NCBI GenBank assembly: GCA_949935795.1
Contig: CATLFX010000004.1
Span: forward strand, 1-64,000
Length of the DNA: 64,000 nucleotides
From: an uncultured Oscillospiraceae bacterium
Lineage (GTDB): Bacteria; Bacillota; Clostridia; Oscillospirales; Oscillospiraceae
Direction of reading: 5' to 3'
This document shows positions 683 through 54,862 of the stretch, one piece after another. The notes below the pieces were generated by a model. That model saw only the letters and a program-made list of their open reading frames with translations. It made no database searches and was not told the origin of the DNA. Position 1 is the stretch's first letter. Each line of letters starts with the position of its first letter. The position numbers and the translations under genes are program-made.

Positions 683-1272
683 TATTTCAGCCCTCCCTTC
701 GCGGCGCGGACGCACAGCCCCGCCGCACCGGCGGCAATGACCAGGAACACCGGAGAGGTTACCACGCCCAGCACCGTCCCCAGCGCGCCCTGGGGCAGGG
801 AGAAAAAGGCGCCGTATCCGGCCATCACCAGCACCACGGCGTAGATAATGCGGGTGGGCCAGTCGATGACGGCGTTTTTAAACAGCTTGATGACGCTGGA
901 CAGGATCAGGGCCACCACCCCGGCCCGGACGCCGTTGAAGGCGTGGACCACGAACTCCAGGTGCATGAAGTTCTGTAAGAAGGCGGCGATGACCATGATG
1001 ATGACTAAGGAGGGGAACACCAGCCCCAGGGTGGCAACGATTCCTCCGGCAATCCCGGCCTGGCTGCGGCCAACAAAGGTGGCGGTGTTCACGGCGATGA
1101 TGCCGGGGGTGCACTGGCCCACGGCGTAGTAGTCGGCCAGCTCGGTCTCCGTGGCCCACTTCTTGTTTTCCACCAGCTCCCGCTGGAGTATGGGCAGCAT
1201 GGCGTAGCCGCCGCCAAAGGTGCATACCCCAATGCGGGCGAAGGTGAGAAATAAATCGACCAGCAGATTCAT
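682..1272 (-). CDS. Chromate transporter family protein (half-size ChrA), first subunit
   Basis: MNLLVDLFLTFARIGVCTFGGGYAMLPIL...QCTPGIIAVNTATFVG; paralogous to the next gene, a typical split ChrA pair. Confidence 0.85.
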   Translation of the reverse strand: MNLLVDLFLTFARIGVCTFGGGYAMLPILQRELVENKKWATETELADYYAVGQCTPGIIAVNTATFVGRSQAGIAGGIVATLGLVFPSLVIIMVIAAFLQNFMHLEFVVHAFNGVRAGVVALILSSVIKLFKNAVIDWPTRIIYAVVLVMAGYGAFFSLPQGALGTVLGVVTSPVFLVIAAGAAGLCVRAAKGGLK

Positions 1273-3206
1273 TGAAGTTCCTCCAATTCATCCAGCCACA
1301 ATTTGGCCGCGGCGTCGCTGGGCATTCTCCAATCCCCGCGGGGGGACAGCGCCACCGACCCCACCTTGGGCCCGTCGGGCAGGCAGGAGCGCTTGAACTG
1401 CTGGGAGAAGAACCGGCGGTAGAAGTTTTTCAGCCATTTCAGCAGCGTCTCCTTGTCGTACCGCCCGTCAAAAGCGCGGGTGGCAAGCCGGAGCACTTTA
1501 CGGGGCGGGAAGCCCCAGCGGATGGCGTAGTACAGGTAGAAGTCGTGGAGCTCGTAGGGGCCCACCAGATCCTCGGTCTTTTGGGCGATCTCCCCGTCCT
1601 TGGGAGGCAGCAGCTCGGGGGACACGGGGGTGTCCAGGATGTCCCGGAGGACCCCGCCGATGGTTCCGCCCCGGCGGTCCGCCTCCCAGGCCACCAGGTG
1701 GCGCACCAGCGTCTTGGGAATGGAGGCGTTGACGGCGTACATGGACATGTGGTCCCCGTTGTAGGTGGCCCAGCCCAGGGCCAGTTCGGACAGGTCCCCG
1801 GTGCCAATGACCAGGCCCCCCCGCTGGTTGGCCAGGTCCATAAGCACCTGGGTGCGCTCTCTTGCCTGGGCGTTCTCAAAGGTGACGCTGTGGTCTTCCA
1901 TGGACTGGCCGATGTCGGCGAAGTGCTGCTCCACCGCTCTGCCGATGTTCACCTCCCGGAAGTCCGCGCCCAGCTCCATGGCAAGGAGTTCCGCGTTGGA
2001 GCGGGTGCGGCGCGTAGTGCCGAAGCAGGGCATGGTGACAGCCAAAATCCCTTTACGGTCCCGGCCCAGCATATCGAAGGCTTTGGCGGTGATGAGGATG
2101 GCCAGGGTGGAGTCCAGCCCGCCGCTCAGGCCCACCACGGCGCAGGAGGCGCTGGTGTGTTCCAGCCGCTTTTTGAGGCCCAGGGCGGCGATGGTCATGA
2201 TCTCCTCGCACCGTTCCGCACGGTCCCCGGCGTCCGCCGGGATGAAGGGAGCGGGAGAGACGGGGCGGGTGAGGGGAGTCTCGGCAGACTCCAGAGAGAA
2301 GAAGCCCCGGCCAATGCCCAGACAGTGGGCGTCTTCCATGGGGGTGTGCTCCGGAGGTGTAAAGGTGTTTACCCTGCGGCGGTCATAGATCAAACGGTCC
2401 ACGTCGATCTCCGCCACGGTCAGCCCGGTATCAAAGCGGTTTTCCGCCAGCAGGACCCCGTTTTCCGCCACCATGTCGTGCCCCGCGAACACCAGATCGG
2501 TGGAGGACTCCCCCTCCCCCGCGTCGGCGTAGACATAAGCGCACATGCTCCGCCCGGACTGGCCGGTCACCAGCTGGCGGCGGTAATCCGCCTTGCCCGC
2601 CACCTCGTCGGAGGCGGACAGGTTCAGGATCAGGGTGGCTCCCGCCCGGGCCAGAGCGCCGGAGGGCGGCTCAGCGGCCCACAGATCCTCACAGATTTCG
2701 ACGCCCACCACCAGATTGGGCATGGTCCCGCACTCCAGGATGATGCTGGGGGACATGTGGACGTTCTGGCCGCACAGGTCCACCGTAGTGTCCAGGTCCT
2801 TGCCGGAGGCAAACCAGCGCGCCTCGTAGAATTCCCCATAGTTGGGGATGTGTGTCTTGGGAATGAGCCGGTGAATCTCGCCCTTCTGTATTACCGCGGC
2901 GCAATTATACAGCTTGTTATCCCAACGGTTCCGCACCGGCATCCCCATGGCGGTGAGCAGGTCCAGCTTCCGGGTCTCGTCCAGGATGCGGCCCAGCTCC
3001 CGCTCCGCGCCGTCCAGCAGCTTTTCCTGCAAAAACAGGTCCCCGCAGGTGTACCCGGTGAGGCACAGCTCCGGCAGGGCTAAAACCTTTACACCCTGTG
3101 CCGCCGCCTCTTTCATCAGCGATATGATCTGGTCCGCGTTGTACGCGCAGTCGGCCACGCGGATTTTCGGCGTACCCGCCGCCACTTTTACAAAGCCGTC
3201 TCTCAT
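1269..3206 (-). CDS. nadE: NAD(+) synthase, glutamine-hydrolysing (N-terminal nitrilase domain + C-terminal synthetase)
   Basis: 645 aa; nitrilase-like LPELCLTGYTCGDLF and synthetase VVGLSGGLDSTLAI P-loop motif. Confidence 0.93.
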   Translation of the reverse strand: MRDGFVKVAAGTPKIRVADCAYNADQIISLMKEAAAQGVKVLALPELCLTGYTCGDLFLQEKLLDGAERELGRILDETRKLDLLTAMGMPVRNRWDNKLYNCAAVIQKGEIHRLIPKTHIPNYGEFYEARWFASGKDLDTTVDLCGQNVHMSPSIILECGTMPNLVVGVEICEDLWAAEPPSGALARAGATLILNLSASDEVAGKADYRRQLVTGQSGRSMCAYVYADAGEGESSTDLVFAGHDMVAENGVLLAENRFDTGLTVAEIDVDRLIYDRRRVNTFTPPEHTPMEDAHCLGIGRGFFSLESAETPLTRPVSPAPFIPADAGDRAERCEEIMTIAALGLKKRLEHTSASCAVVGLSGGLDSTLAILITAKAFDMLGRDRKGILAVTMPCFGTTRRTRSNAELLAMELGADFREVNIGRAVEQHFADIGQSMEDHSVTFENAQARERTQVLMDLANQRGGLVIGTGDLSELALGWATYNGDHMSMYAVNASIPKTLVRHLVAWEADRRGGTIGGVLRDILDTPVSPELLPPKDGEIAQKTEDLVGPYELHDFYLYYAIRWGFPPRKVLRLATRAFDGRYDKETLLKWLKNFYRRFFSQQFKRSCLPDGPKVGSVALSPRGDWRMPSDAAAKLWLDELEELQ

Positions 3207-3514
3207 AAACCGGCCCCCTATCCTGAAATGATGAATGCAGAGCCTTCCTTTTTTCTTTGAAAAGAAAAAAGGAAGCGAAAAAAGAAACTTTTGAACTTCT
3301 ATCCACGGATATTGCCCGGACAGTTGCCGGGCGCGTTTGGCGCGGTTTATGCTTACCGTCCGTCAGCGGGCCAGAAGTTCTTTTTCGGTTCCTTTTTCTT
3401 ACAAGAAAAAGGAACAATGAGGAATAGCGGTATTTTACCCCAATTCCTCCAAAAATGCAACGGGAGCCGCTTACAAAAGCTGTGGGCTTTTTCGCGGAAT
3501 TTATATCCTGTTCA

Positions 3515-3584: not shown

Positions 3585-4409
3585 ATGGCGTACACATTCG
3601 CACAGTATCAGGAGAGCGCTGATTACATCAAGGAAAAAATCGGAGGATTTATCCCCAAAGTTGCCATGGTGCTGGGCTCTGGCCTGGGCTTCCTGGGCGA
3701 CGTGGTGGAAAATCCCACCGCCATTCCCTATGGCGAAATCCCCCATTTCAAAGCGTCCACCGCCCCCGGCCACAAGGGACAGCTGGTGTTCGGACAGCTG
3801 GCGGGCAAAAACGTGGCCGTCATGCAGGGCCGGATGCACCACTACGAGGGCTACGGCTATGATGACGTGTCTTACGCCGTGCGGGTGCTGCGGCTGCTGG
3901 GCTGCGACACCCTCATCGTCACCAACGCCGCCGGGTGCGTGCGCACCGACTGGCAGGCGGGAGACCTGATGCTCATCACCGACCACATCAAGATGTTCTC
4001 CGAGTCCCCCCTGCGGGGGGAGAACATCCCCGAGTTCGGCGTCCGCTTCCCCGACGCCTCCCACCTGTACACCCCCCGGTTGCAAAAAATTGCCCGGGAC
4101 ACCGCCGCGGACATGTTCATCACCCTGCGGGAGGGGGTCTACTTCTACTGCTACGGCCCCCAGTACGAGACCCCCGCTGAGGTCCGGGCGGCCCGGATTT
4201 TGGGCGGCGACGCGGTGGGCATGTCCACCGCCCCCGAGGTCATCGTGGCGGGCCACTGCGGCATGGAGGTTTTGGGCTTCACCCTGCTGTCCAACATGGC
4301 GGCTGGCATCCTGGACCAGCCCCTCAGCGAAAAAGAGGTGCTGGACGCCGCCGAGGCCGCCAAGGATAAATTCTCCCGGCTGGTGCTGGGCTGCCTGAGA
4401 AAACTGTAA
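3585..4409 (+). CDS. Purine-nucleoside phosphorylase
   Basis: VLGSGLGFLGD, HYYEGY-like HHYEGYGYDDV, GPQYETPAE, VGMSTAPEVIVA motifs. Confidence 0.95.
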   Translation: MAYTFAQYQESADYIKEKIGGFIPKVAMVLGSGLGFLGDVVENPTAIPYGEIPHFKASTAPGHKGQLVFGQLAGKNVAVMQGRMHHYEGYGYDDVSYAVRVLRLLGCDTLIVTNAAGCVRTDWQAGDLMLITDHIKMFSESPLRGENIPEFGVRFPDASHLYTPRLQKIARDTAADMFITLREGVYFYCYGPQYETPAEVRAARILGGDAVGMSTAPEVIVAGHCGMEVLGFTLLSNMAAGILDQPLSEKEVLDAAEAAKDKFSRLVLGCLRKL

Positions 4410-35855: not shown

Positions 35856-36872
35856 ATGAGAATCAAGAAGTTCCTGGCCGGCATGCTGTGCGCCGCTCTT
35901 CTCTGCTCTCTGGCCGCCTGCGGCGGGCCGGGCGGCGTCGGAGAGACCAACGCCGATGGGGAGAAGGTCTTTCACCTTCGGCTGGCCCACAATCTGGCGG
36001 AGGACCACGCGGTCCACATCGCCATGACCGCCTGGGCCGAGGCCGTGAAGGAGAAGTCCAACGGCTCCATCACCATCCAGATCTTCCCCAACGGAACCCT
36101 GGGCAGCGAGACGGACTGCATCACCATCATGCGGGCGGGCGGCCTGGATATGACAAAGGTGTCCGCCGCCACCCTGGGCAACTTTAAAAACGAGTGGAAC
36201 GCCCTGTCCGTGCCCTACGTGTTCAACGACAAGGACCACTACTATAACGTGATGGACGGCGAGATCGCTCAGGATATGTACCAGCTCACCGCCGACGCGG
36301 GCTTCATCGGCCTGACCTGGCTGGACTCCGGCTCCCGCTCCTTCTACACCGCTAAGACCCCCATCCGCACCCCGGCGGACCTGAAGGGGCTCAAAATTCG
36401 CACCATGGACTCCCAGATGGCCATCGACATGATGAACGCTTTGGGAGGCTCCGCCCAGGTCATGGGCTACAGCGAGATCTACACCGGCATGCAGCAGGGC
36501 AACGTGGACGGCGCGGAGAACAACGTCACCGCCCTGCGGGACCACAGCGACGTGACCCAGTACTACTGCTTTGACGAGCACACCCGCATCCCCGACATCA
36601 TTGTGCTGTCCAAGACGGTGTGGGACCAGATGTCCGACAACCAGAAGCAGATCCTGAAGGACACCGCCGCCGACATGACCGACGGCTATAAGCAGGCCTG
36701 GAAGGACTTTGAGGACGAGGTGCTGGAGGCCGCCGTGAACAACGGCGTGGAGCTGATCCGGGACGTGGACATGGCCGCTTTCCAGTCCGCCTGCCAGCCC
36801 ATCTACGAGAAGCTCAAGACCAGCGACCCCGGGGTGTACTCCTACGTGGAGCGCATCCAGAACGCGGGCTAG
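35856..36872 (+). CDS. dctP: TRAP transporter solute-binding protein DctP
   Basis: Lipoprotein signal (LLCSLAACGG); AHNLAEDHAVHIAMTAWAEAVKEKSNGSITIQIFPNGTLGSETD. Confidence 0.95.
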   Translation: MRIKKFLAGMLCAALLCSLAACGGPGGVGETNADGEKVFHLRLAHNLAEDHAVHIAMTAWAEAVKEKSNGSITIQIFPNGTLGSETDCITIMRAGGLDMTKVSAATLGNFKNEWNALSVPYVFNDKDHYYNVMDGEIAQDMYQLTADAGFIGLTWLDSGSRSFYTAKTPIRTPADLKGLKIRTMDSQMAIDMMNALGGSAQVMGYSEIYTGMQQGNVDGAENNVTALRDHSDVTQYYCFDEHTRIPDIIVLSKTVWDQMSDNQKQILKDTAADMTDGYKQAWKDFEDEVLEAAVNNGVELIRDVDMAAFQSACQPIYEKLKTSDPGVYSYVERIQNAG

Positions 36873-36912
36873 TTCTTTTTCTTGAAAGAAAAAGAACCAA
36901 AAAGAACTTTTA
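36872..36912 (+). repeat. Hairpin-AAAAAGAACTT element between dctP and dctQ
   Basis: GTTCTTTTTCTT-GA-AAGAAAAAGAAC-CAAAAAGAACTTTT; begins in the dctP stop codon. Confidence 0.7.
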
Positions 36913-41484: not shown

Positions 41485-43998
41485 ATGCTTTTGAAAAAAT
41501 ATGTCTCCCATGAGAAAACCCCCGTGGGCTATGTGGTCCACGGGGACCAGGCCGACGTTTTGCTGGTCTTTCTCAGCGACGACGTGATCCGCGTCCGGGT
41601 GTCCTTCTCCCGGGAGTTTCCCGAGCAGTCCTACGCCCTGGTGACCACCGCCTGGGCGGACCGGCTGGACCCCCTGTTCGCCGGGGAGCGCACCCGGATC
41701 ACCGCCCTGGACGTGCCCTGTGAGGAGACCGCCCAGGCCCTGACCTTTACCACCGCCGCCCTGAAGCTGGTGCTGAACAAGTCACCCTTCGGTTTCTCCC
41801 TGTACACCGCCGGGGGGACGTGCATCTACCGGGATCTGCCCGAGCGGGCCTTCGAGGTGGACCAGCTGGGCCGCCTCAGCCACTACTCCTGCCTGGACCG
41901 GAAGAACGACCACTTCTACGGCTTCGGCGAGAAGACCGGCCACCTGGACAAGAAGTACCGCCGCCTGCGCATGAGCCCCAAGGACGCCATCGGCCACGAC
42001 CCGGAGCACGGCGACCCCATGTACAAGCACATCCCCTTCTATATCCGTGTCAACGAGGAAAACCTCCATTCCCTGGGCCTGTTCTACCACAACTCCTACG
42101 ACTGCGTGTTCGACCTGGGCCAGGAGATCAGCGGCTACTGGGAATCCTACTGCTACTGGCAGGCGGACGGGGGCGACATCGACCTGTTCCTCCTCAACGG
42201 CCCCACGGCGGCGGACGTGGTCCGGCGCTACACCTGGCTGACGGGCCGCACCGCCCTGCCCACCAAGCAGTCCCTGGGCTTCTGCGCCTCCACCATGTAT
42301 TATGCGGAGCTGGAGAAGGACTGCGACCAGGAGATCTACAAGGTCATCGACAAGCACCTCCAGGAGAAGCTGTGGATCGACAACTTCTGGCTGGCCTCGG
42401 GCTACTCCTCCGGGGAGGAGGACGGCCTGCGCTACACCTTCAACTGGAACCACAAGCGCTTCCCCGACCCGGAGAAGTTCTTTGAGACCATGAACGCCAA
42501 GGGCATCAACGTGATTCCCAACCTGAAGCCCGGCGTGCTGAAAAACCACCCCTATGCCAAGTACTACGAGGACCGGGACGCCTTCATCAAGACCGCCGAC
42601 GGCAAGGAGGACTACTACGGCCGCTGGTGGGGCGGCGAGGGACGGTTCATCGACTTCACCGGGCCCGCCGGACGGGAGGCCTGGAAGAAGCTGCTCAAGG
42701 AGAACATCCTGGCCAAGGGCTGTACCACCGTTTGGAACGACAACTGCGAGATGGACGGGGTGGAGGACCGGGACGCCAAGTGCGACTACGAGGGCGGCCA
42801 GGGCACCATGGCGGAGCTGAAAATCATCCACTCCAACATGATGGCCTATGTGGGCTGGAAGGCCCTGGAGGAGATGTACCCCAACCAGCGGCCCTACGTC
42901 ATCAACCGGGCGGGCTTCGCGGGCATACAGCGCTACGCCCAGGTGTGGGGGGGCGACAACCTCACCGACTGGAAGACGGTGAAGTTCAACCTGGCCACCA
43001 TTATGGGCATGGGCCTGTCCGGCTGCGCCAACATGGGCTGCGATATCGGCGGCTTCGCCGGGGGCGCCCCCGAGGGGGAGCTGATGCTGCGCTGGATTCA
43101 GAGCGGCGTGTTCCAGCCCCGGTTCACCATCAACTCGGCCAACAACGACAACACCGTCACCCAGCCCTGGATGTACGAGGAGCTGCTGCCCCAGGTCCGG
43201 GCGGCCTACGCCCTGCGCTACCGCATGCTGCCCTACCTCTACTCCCTGATGTATGAGGCCAGCGTGACCGGCATGCCCGTCATGCGGCCCCTGTTCCTGG
43301 AGTTCCCGGACGACGTGAACTGCTACACCGACCAAAATCTGACCTTCATGTTTGGCCCGTCCCTGCTGGTGGCCAACGTGGTGGAGAAGGGGGCGGCGGA
43401 GCGGACCATCTACCTGCCCGCCGGGACCAAGTGGTACGACATGAACGACTTCATGCGGGAGTACGAGGGGGGCCGGACCATCACTGTTCCCGTGACCCTG
43501 GACACCATCCCCATGTTCCTGCGGGGAAGCGCCGTGTTTTTCACCAGCGAGGACGTGACCCACATCCTGTCCGACACCCTGCGCCAGCTGGACCTGACCG
43601 TCGGTGCGGAGGGGGACAGCAGCTTTGTGTTCTACGACGACGACGGCCATACACAGGACTTCAAAAAAGGCGTGTACGCCAAAACCACCATCTCCGTGAA
43701 AAGCGGCGACCGGAAGGTGATCTCCTTCCATAAGGAGGGCGGCTGGCCCGGCACGGTGGAGCGGCTGACGCTGAAGGTGGTCAGCAAGAGCAAGGGGGCC
43801 TACTGGGCCGCCGTAGACGGGGAGCGGATTCCCCGCTTCCTGGTCCGGGACAACTGGGAGGAGGCGGAGGCCGGGTGGTATTACAACCTGTCCGACCGCA
43901 CCGTGTGGATCAAGTGCCCCAAGCCCGCCAAGGATGACTTCGACATTGTGGTGTCCACAGAGAAATTCGACCTGATTGGCATGGCCGACGAGGTATGA
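41485..43998 (+). CDS. Glycoside hydrolase family 31, tandem paralogue (cytoplasmic)
   Basis: 837 aa; FYGFGEKTGHLDKK, TVWNDNCEMD, VWGGDNLTDW; no signal peptide. Confidence 0.93.
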   Translation: MLLKKYVSHEKTPVGYVVHGDQADVLLVFLSDDVIRVRVSFSREFPEQSYALVTTAWADRLDPLFAGERTRITALDVPCEETAQALTFTTAALKLVLNKSPFGFSLYTAGGTCIYRDLPERAFEVDQLGRLSHYSCLDRKNDHFYGFGEKTGHLDKKYRRLRMSPKDAIGHDPEHGDPMYKHIPFYIRVNEENLHSLGLFYHNSYDCVFDLGQEISGYWESYCYWQADGGDIDLFLLNGPTAADVVRRYTWLTGRTALPTKQSLGFCASTMYYAELEKDCDQEIYKVIDKHLQEKLWIDNFWLASGYSSGEEDGLRYTFNWNHKRFPDPEKFFETMNAKGINVIPNLKPGVLKNHPYAKYYEDRDAFIKTADGKEDYYGRWWGGEGRFIDFTGPAGREAWKKLLKENILAKGCTTVWNDNCEMDGVEDRDAKCDYEGGQGTMAELKIIHSNMMAYVGWKALEEMYPNQRPYVINRAGFAGIQRYAQVWGGDNLTDWKTVKFNLATIMGMGLSGCANMGCDIGGFAGGAPEGELMLRWIQSGVFQPRFTINSANNDNTVTQPWMYEELLPQVRAAYALRYRMLPYLYSLMYEASVTGMPVMRPLFLEFPDDVNCYTDQNLTFMFGPSLLVANVVEKGAAERTIYLPAGTKWYDMNDFMREYEGGRTITVPVTLDTIPMFLRGSAVFFTSEDVTHILSDTLRQLDLTVGAEGDSSFVFYDDDGHTQDFKKGVYAKTTISVKSGDRKVISFHKEGGWPGTVERLTLKVVSKSKGAYWAAVDGERIPRFLVRDNWEEAEAGWYYNLSDRTVWIKCPKPAKDDFDIVVSTEKFDLIGMADEV

Positions 43999-44066
43999 GA
44001 TACTTTTTCTTGAAAGAAAAAGTATCCAAAAAGAACTTTAGACCGCTGACGGCCAGAGTGTGGACT
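43999..44066 (+). repeat. Hairpin-AAAAAGAACTT-CCGCTGACGG element
   Basis: GATACTTTTTCTT-GA-AAGAAAAAGTATC-CAAAAAGAACTTTAGACCGCTGACGGCC directly after a stop codon. Confidence 0.7.
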
Positions 44067-44102
44067 GTCTCATTCCCACCCGGCCACGAAAATTGATGAA
44101 AG

Positions 44103-44146
44103 CTTGAAAGTATCCAAAAAGAACTTTGGACCGCTGACGGCCGCAG
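44103..44146 (+). repeat. Partial second copy of the same element
   Basis: CTTGAAAGTATCCAAAAAGAACTTTGGACCGCTGACGGCCGC. Confidence 0.7.
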
Positions 44147-44281
44147 GCAGACGCTGCTCCACTGCCGCCCGACGACGGACAGGCTGTTCGACATACAAAG
44201 AAACTGTTAGACCTATATGCTGATTGTGGTTTCCCGCCCGCCAGGGCGGGAAACCAGGATAAAGATTTGGAGGGATTTTCC

Positions 44282-54761: not shown

Positions 54762-54862
54762 GGCAGCGGGATGCGGAACACGCACTGCGGGGGTGATTCC
54801 CTTCGTCCGGCGGACAACTCCCCGTCCCGCCGGCACTTTTACACGCGCGCTCCTACTCTGCC
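54762..54862 (-). promoter_or_regulatory. THF (tetrahydrofolate) riboswitch-like leader of folT
   Basis: Minus strand GGCAGAGTAGGAGCGCGCGTGTAAAAGTGCCGGCGGGACGGGGAGTTGTCCGCCGGACGAAGGGAATCACCCCCGCAGTGCGTGTTCCGCATCCCGCTGCC; GAGTAG/AAGTG/ACGAAGG/GCATCCCGC blocks closed by GGCAG/CTGCC. Confidence 0.75.

Follow-up and report, generated by a model that had tools for sequence, protein, structure and literature searches.

An Oscillospiraceae repeat family of paired hairpin-linker modules, with a linker that mirrors its hairpin and is a candidate third strand

What is the strongly symmetrical stretch of DNA between the genes for NAD synthase and a nucleoside phosphorylase in an uncultured Oscillospiraceae bacterium? 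The window analyzed here is the whole 64,000-nucleotide stretch containing this locus. The initial annotation had read the locus as two opposed copies of one hairpin-linker sequence and as a mobile or REP-like element rather than a simple 3' terminator. The analyses described below suggest that it is probably a copy of an interspersed repeat family of Oscillospiraceae, non-autonomous and resembling MITEs and BIMEs, in which the linker has coevolved with the hairpin and would fold with it as a class II triplex in single-stranded DNA. The coupling between hairpin and linker and the placement of many copies at stop codons are new relative to the initial annotation.

The composite element and its repeat family

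The composite element occupies positions 3244-3415 and is an inverted pair of hairpin-linker modules without genes (Table 1). Both hairpins are perfect, with 3244-3258 pairing with 3261-3275 (15 bp) and 3388-3400 with 3403-3415 (13 bp). The NAD synthase gene is on the minus strand (1269-3206) and the gene for a PNP/UDP phosphorylase of the purine nucleoside phosphorylase type on the plus strand (3585-4409), and the flanking genes are therefore divergent. The hairpin and linker sequences named in the initial annotation were all recovered, including the continuation of the right hairpin, on the minus strand, into CGAAAAAGAACTTCTGGCCCGCTGACGG. The inverted pair between divergent genes also stood as described, but its halves are relatives and not identical copies (T5/CTT versus T6/CTTT), with segment complementarity of 73% and 94%.

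The motif AAAAAGAACTT, allowing at most one mismatch, had 6 matches in the window, compared to 0.17 expected from shuffles, and CCGCTGACGG alone was not significant there (16 matches with at most one mismatch, 11.4 expected). The same sequence type does recur at 36872 as a single unit and at 43999 as two tandem units, in agreement with the initial annotation. Folding of the 175-nt element is far stronger than that of its shuffles (z of -7.5 as DNA and -5.9 as RNA), and in the fold predicted for the window copy the two linkers form Watson-Crick pairs with each other around the GC-rich centre.

Table 1. Features of the composite element and of the related units in the window (LE, left end; RE, right end).
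Feature	Positions	Strand	Basis
RE hairpin CTTCCTTTTTTCTTTGAAAAGAAAAAAGGAAG, inner pyrimidine arm T6CTTT	3244..3275	+	15 bp perfect
RE linker AAAAAAGAAAC, parallel complement of RE inner arm T6CTTTG, candidate third strand	3278..3288	+	sequence, coupling statistics
Central GC-rich part; linkers pair around it in predicted fold	3289..3374	.	fold prediction
LE linker AAAAAGAA, parallel complement of LE inner arm TTTTTCTT, candidate third strand	3378..3385	-	motif position, coupling statistics
LE hairpin GTTCCTTTTTCTTGTAAGAAAAAGGAAC, forms inverted composite with RE	3388..3415	-	perfect 13 bp; LE beside RE at other loci too
LE hairpin (GTTC stem), starting on last base of dctP stop codon TAG (36870-36872)	36872..36897	+	sequence, gene calls
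LE linker AAAAAGAA, then GC module to about 36963	36899..36906	+	sequence
LE hairpin (GATAC stem), directly after TGA (43996-43998) of GH31 gene	43999..44026	+	sequence, gene calls
LE linker AAAAAGAA of first tandem unit, then GC module to about 44094	44028..44035	+	sequence
Second tandem unit: decayed 5' arm, 3' arm and linker (44116-44123), GC module	44100..44180	+	sequence

The additional copies that the initial annotation had called for were found in the draft genome from which the window derives (2.24 Mb, 70 contigs, 70% complete), where the LE-type hairpin-linker pattern has 59 sites, with none for a reversed-pattern control, and the RE module has 25. An inverted LE partner was shown for 20 of the 25 RE modules, with a total span of 133-387 bp and no gene between the two; no autonomous copy, whose ends would enclose a gene, was seen in this genome. 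LE modules are also found singly and in tandem arrays of two or three, and a GC-rich part (TCGCTGACGG...CCGCCCGGCGACGA) follows each of them. The complete form is thus an inverted module pair of about 130-390 bp, mostly 140-250 bp, and partial and tandem forms are common. Every module follows one plan, in which an outer stem X, a pyrimidine arm T_nCT_m, a 2-nt loop, a purine arm A_mGA_n and the complement X' are followed by 1-2 nt, a purine linker A_nGA_m with a C, and the GC-rich part.

An exact-pattern scan of GTDB-type genomes returned 93 stretches, mostly of Oscillospiraceae type (Oscillibacter and relatives) where the title names a family or genus, with one stretch labelled Butyricicoccus and one labelled Clostridiaceae. 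The distribution is patchy, with the strict pattern present in 7 of 151 Oscillospiraceae genomes and RE counts in 42 genomes of the same genus ranging from 0 (30 of 42) up to 25. The plasmid and phage collections searched for the element gave no match, and no paper on the family was found in the open-licence literature. A copy of the strict pattern was observed in one IMG/VR viral contig (4621 bp).

The sites themselves are unstable between close relatives. At the window sites, several relatives with flanks roughly 75-96% identical have compact intergenic DNA without the element, and others carry a full or truncated form. The site at 36872 is empty in three relatives, full in a fourth and truncated in a fifth (G170), and the site at 43999 is empty in five. 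When 15 further sites were followed in six relatives, 52 of the 69 orthologous positions were empty, 14 were filled and 3 held remnants. Since the element is missing at most orthologous sites in the same genus, it appears to be gained and lost like a non-autonomous mobile element, and this pattern, read from genome comparison, is that of an element which is mobile or at any rate comes and goes rapidly; some of the empty sites could be losses. Short length, lack of coding capacity, inverted ends, many copies and insertion polymorphism with empty sites are all features of MITEs.

No transposase or clear target-site duplication was identified for the element. One locus suggested a 3-bp TGA duplication, a single candidate that was not consistent across copies. 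The flanks of composites vary; AAGGGC..GCCCTT often lies outside the hairpins, as at three loci, but not consistently, and it is possible that this is a true terminal inverted repeat in composites. At one of the three these flanks are accompanied by TA on both sides.

Several loci showed other repeats in or next to the modules. A second GC-rich interspersed repeat (..AGCCGCGCGTGGCGAACAGGCGAAGCGTGACA..) lies inside or replaces element arrays at three loci (one of them L015, near 1060-1107), and in G170 a stretch related to it fills the stop-codon site where the genome of the window has the element. At five loci another hairpin (GCGAAACGAAGTTTCGC type) takes the place of the GC module after the linker or is combined with it, and from these swaps the modules of the repeat seem to be exchangeable. 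Partial hairpins stand directly 5' of a full hairpin at four loci (..TTTTTCTTGA|CCTACTTTTTCTTGAAAG..), an arrangement that resembles insertion of elements into the hairpin tips of other elements, or recombination with them.

Coupling between hairpin and linker

The A-rich linker is the parallel complement of the inner pyrimidine arm of its hairpin, i.e., the mirror of the 3' arm, so that T_nCT_m is accompanied by A_nGA_m. This parallel complementarity amounts to mirror symmetry between 3' arm and linker, a relation that does not arise through Watson-Crick pairing, copying or direct repetition. The linker follows n from 3 to 6 and several inner sequences, the pairs observed being T5CTT/A5GAA, T4CTC/A4GAG, T6CTTT/A6GAAA, T3CTTTC/A3GAAAG, T5CTTTCT/A5GAAAGA, T4CTTTT/A4GAAAA and T6CTTC/A6GAAG. 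At one orthologous stop codon the CTTG/GAAC or the CTTTG/GAAAC form is found, depending on the relative, and at another CTTG/GAAC or CTCG/GAGC.

Across 232 unique hairpin-plus-linker sequences, the linker matched the whole inner arm in 187. In a permutation test 180 of 218 were coupled, compared to a mean of 88 and a maximum of 103 for permuted linkers; because the copies are related by descent such shuffle counts overstate their independence, and the fairer unit is about 15 (n, inner-arm) types. With the T5CTT and T5CTC types dropped as retrieval-biased, these loci having been retrieved through their linker, 49 of 70 were coupled (permuted mean 6.5, maximum 16), and the final count without these types was 53 mirror matches in 79. 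A prospective test with a hairpin-only pattern was run over 301 genomes of the family and gave matches from four genomes of three genera other than that of the window. The predicted 8-mer followed 13 of 14 distinct hairpins, with T3CTTTC leading to A3GAAAG (8) and T3CTTTT to A3GAAAA (5) and no crossing at the innermost position.

The outer stem X varies widely with its complement kept; its three free positions were complementary in 99 of 112 cases, with 17 distinct triplets and a shuffled mean of 22. Coupling is only partial for the loop bases and for the base that follows the linker (CTT is retained with GT loops). Pairing between LE and RE linkers was considered as the source of the coupling and rejected, because a single element combines an LE with n=5 and m=2 and an RE with n=6 and m=3, and the linker of each half agrees with its own hairpin. 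In another hairpin family of Oscillospiraceae (GGGTACTTTTCCC..GGGAAAAGTACCC; six loci), the flank AAAAGGG obeys the mirror rule in 2 of 6.

Judged from sequence, the coupling is the signature expected of a class II (Y-R-R) intrastrand triplex, which the modules may form. In the terms of Holder et al. 2015, the order of pyrimidine, purine and purine with a short second loop corresponds to a purine-motif intrastrand triplex of class II, defined as a pyrimidine strand, a purine strand and a reverse-Hoogsteen purine strand with a stem of 6-15 nt and loops of 1-6 nt (PMC4666352). In the present family the inner arms are 6-11 nt long and the first loop is mostly 2 nt; X' and the spacer together measure 5-7 nt in nearly all copies and at most 6 in 139 of 180. 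Triad by triad, the linker as candidate third strand matches the duplex in most sequences of all three sets (187/232, unbiased 53/79, prospective 13/14). Because the outer stem X:X' is conserved as well, a third strand that begins at its foot has to cross 4-5 bp with a spacer of 1-2 nt. Such a crossing may be strained. The weakness of A.A-T triads and the ability of the two linkers of the window copy to pair with each other also count against the triplex.

The sequence of events we propose starts from a linker with the mirror symmetry of a class II purine-motif third strand, coevolved with its hairpin. The module would most likely fold while in single-stranded DNA, on the lagging strand or in an excision or insertion intermediate, and form a hairpin along whose purine arm the linker runs antiparallel. 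A single-stranded DNA stage is favoured because RNA strands are reported to be excluded from purine-motif triplexes, according to a title in the reference list of PMC4666352. The folded module would then be acted on by an enzyme or by the replication machinery when copies are gained. Surviving units stand mostly downstream of genes in sense orientation, often beginning exactly at the stop codon, and could there double as hairpins at mRNA 3' ends. We suggest, tentatively, a further step in which selection keeps the ends of this mobile repeat as DNA triple helices, with hairpin and third strand coevolving and the triplex as the functional form recognised during spread.

Placement at gene 3' ends and alternative explanations

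The elements stand mostly in sense orientation at gene 3' ends, which does not hold for the window composite with its divergent neighbours. In 57 of 66 copies from the genome of the window, the end of a long sense ORF coincides with the hairpin or lies close to it. Of the copies in this genome, 16 of 46 have a stop codon that ends 0-2 nt into the hairpin, as do 35 of 119 copies from other Oscillospiraceae; a second peak, 14-17 nt into the hairpin, represents stops in the hairpin loop. This placement may reflect either an insertion preference, which would be an unusual targeting rule, or selection.

It would also be expected of a structured mRNA 3'-end element, in which stop-codon hairpins would bring about protection or termination of transcripts and the linker would be coupled for the sake of an RNA-binding protein or of an RNA structure (a U.A-U triple helix in the case of the opposite strand). 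The sense orientation within 0-2 nt of stop codons in many genomes, the recurrence of different subtypes at one stop codon among relatives and the very stable RNA fold all agree with this explanation, which we nevertheless regard as unlikely. Most orthologous genes lack the element, the composite form and the window copy between divergent genes do not fit, and the reported exclusion of RNA strands from purine-motif triplexes, again as a title cited in PMC4666352, is a further point against it. Additionally, no U-tract follows the hairpin, and a terminator scan of the window element gave no site in either hairpin and one weak match in the GC-rich middle at 3332, which bears out the initial annotation in that the element is not a simple 3' terminator. 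The element also corresponds to no Rfam family (Rfam 15). RNAalifold on 47 LE units supported the first hairpin only, with no consensus pairing in the GC module. A THF riboswitch aptamer was observed elsewhere in the window (54762-54862, minus strand, 88.6 bits).

The coupling could be a by-product, with the linker copying the outer 3' arm by slippage or conversion, or with a few subtypes sharing ancestry. The copies are indeed related, and in the GTTC-stem type (window 36872) outer 3' arm and linker are identical. Direct copying of the outer arm, however, fits only 15 of the 232 sequences and, in the unbiased set, 2 of 79 compared to 53 for the mirror; the linker matches the inner arm even where the outer arm differs, across at least 10 (n, inner) types and four genera, making a by-product improbable.

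Movement of a REP/BIME-type element by a RAYT (Y1 HUH) transposase was the possibility that the initial annotation had proposed to check, and dispersed intergenic palindromes in inverted pairs would be compatible with it. No Y1_Tnp (PF01797) match was found in the genome of the window (70% complete) or in four element-rich relatives (89-95% complete), two other genomes have many Y1 matches yet no RE copy, and no REP tetranucleotide was defined. This explanation is largely refuted and has very little probability left. Of the mobile or REP-like character once suggested, the dispersed non-coding inverted pair with empty sites is retained, and REP-like is a fair description as far as dispersed inverted palindromes are meant; the RAYT link is not supported, nor is membership in REP/BIME established. 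Ordinary intrinsic terminators that look repetitive through base composition would account for hairpins near gene ends, but a linker and GC module that are nearly identical at dozens of loci, the inverted pairs, the empty sites and the A/T-rich stems followed by CAAAAAGAACTT without a T-run refute them for the family as an almost negligible possibility, and single solo hairpins could have been co-opted as such.

Comparison with known systems

Altogether, the element is real, dispersed and of mobile type, of the PIT/MITE kind and without a link to RAYT in the genomes searched, and the coevolving third strand is its unusual part. REP/BIME elements resemble it in being extragenic, present in many copies and palindromic in inverted pairs; it differs from them in its sequence logic and in the lack of a Y1 transposase match in the carriers examined. 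Bacterial MITEs such as Correia and RUP, along with BOX for modularity, are small and non-coding, with inverted ends, modular and tandem forms and insertion polymorphism. The present element shares all of these properties, but no parent transposon or clear target-site duplication was found for it, and its ends are hairpins with a mirror linker. In the triple-helix RNA elements of transposons and long RNAs (ENE/MALAT1 type) an A-rich tract is bound to U-rich loops, and in some eukaryotes these are linked to mobile elements. A hairpin with a third strand and one-to-one base triads is common to both, whereas the candidate third strand of the present family is a purine strand in the sense strand.

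Ever since intrastrand triplexes were catalogued in bacterial genomes, it has been an open question whether they do anything in cells, as there is hardly any variation among the known repeats. Here arm length and sequence vary and the third strand follows, which provides the compensatory-change test that was previously missing. The family also supplies natural variants by the dozen, close relatives that differ in empty sites, and a lineage of gut bacteria in which an enzyme can be sought. In the open-licence literature, no paper with natural covariation evidence of this kind for triple-stranded DNA was found; if the proposed selection on the triplex is true, this would to our knowledge be the first such evidence for an intrastrand triplex with an in vivo role.

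The family can also be compared with TM_ECO of E. coli, which is the PIT of Hoyne and Maher (2000, 2002), a dispersed intergenic repeat that sometimes occurs in inverted pairs and forms a stable triplex in vitro, and for which in vivo DMS footprinting did not support a triplex (PMC4666352). Both families are dispersed intergenic repeats with the order Y-loop-R-loop-R and a short second loop, occur as inverted pairs of two subtypes and vary in presence or absence between close relatives. The TM_ECO consensus (CCCTCNCCC...GGGNGAGGG) is not matched here, the sequence being T_nCT_m / A_nGA_m. The present family differs in being A/T-rich, in its conserved outer stem X:X', GC-rich extra part and tandem arrays, and in its sense orientation and placement at stop codons. 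Above all, TM_ECO is nearly invariant, with no covariation reported (PMC4666352), whereas in the family described here arm and third strand vary together across lineages.
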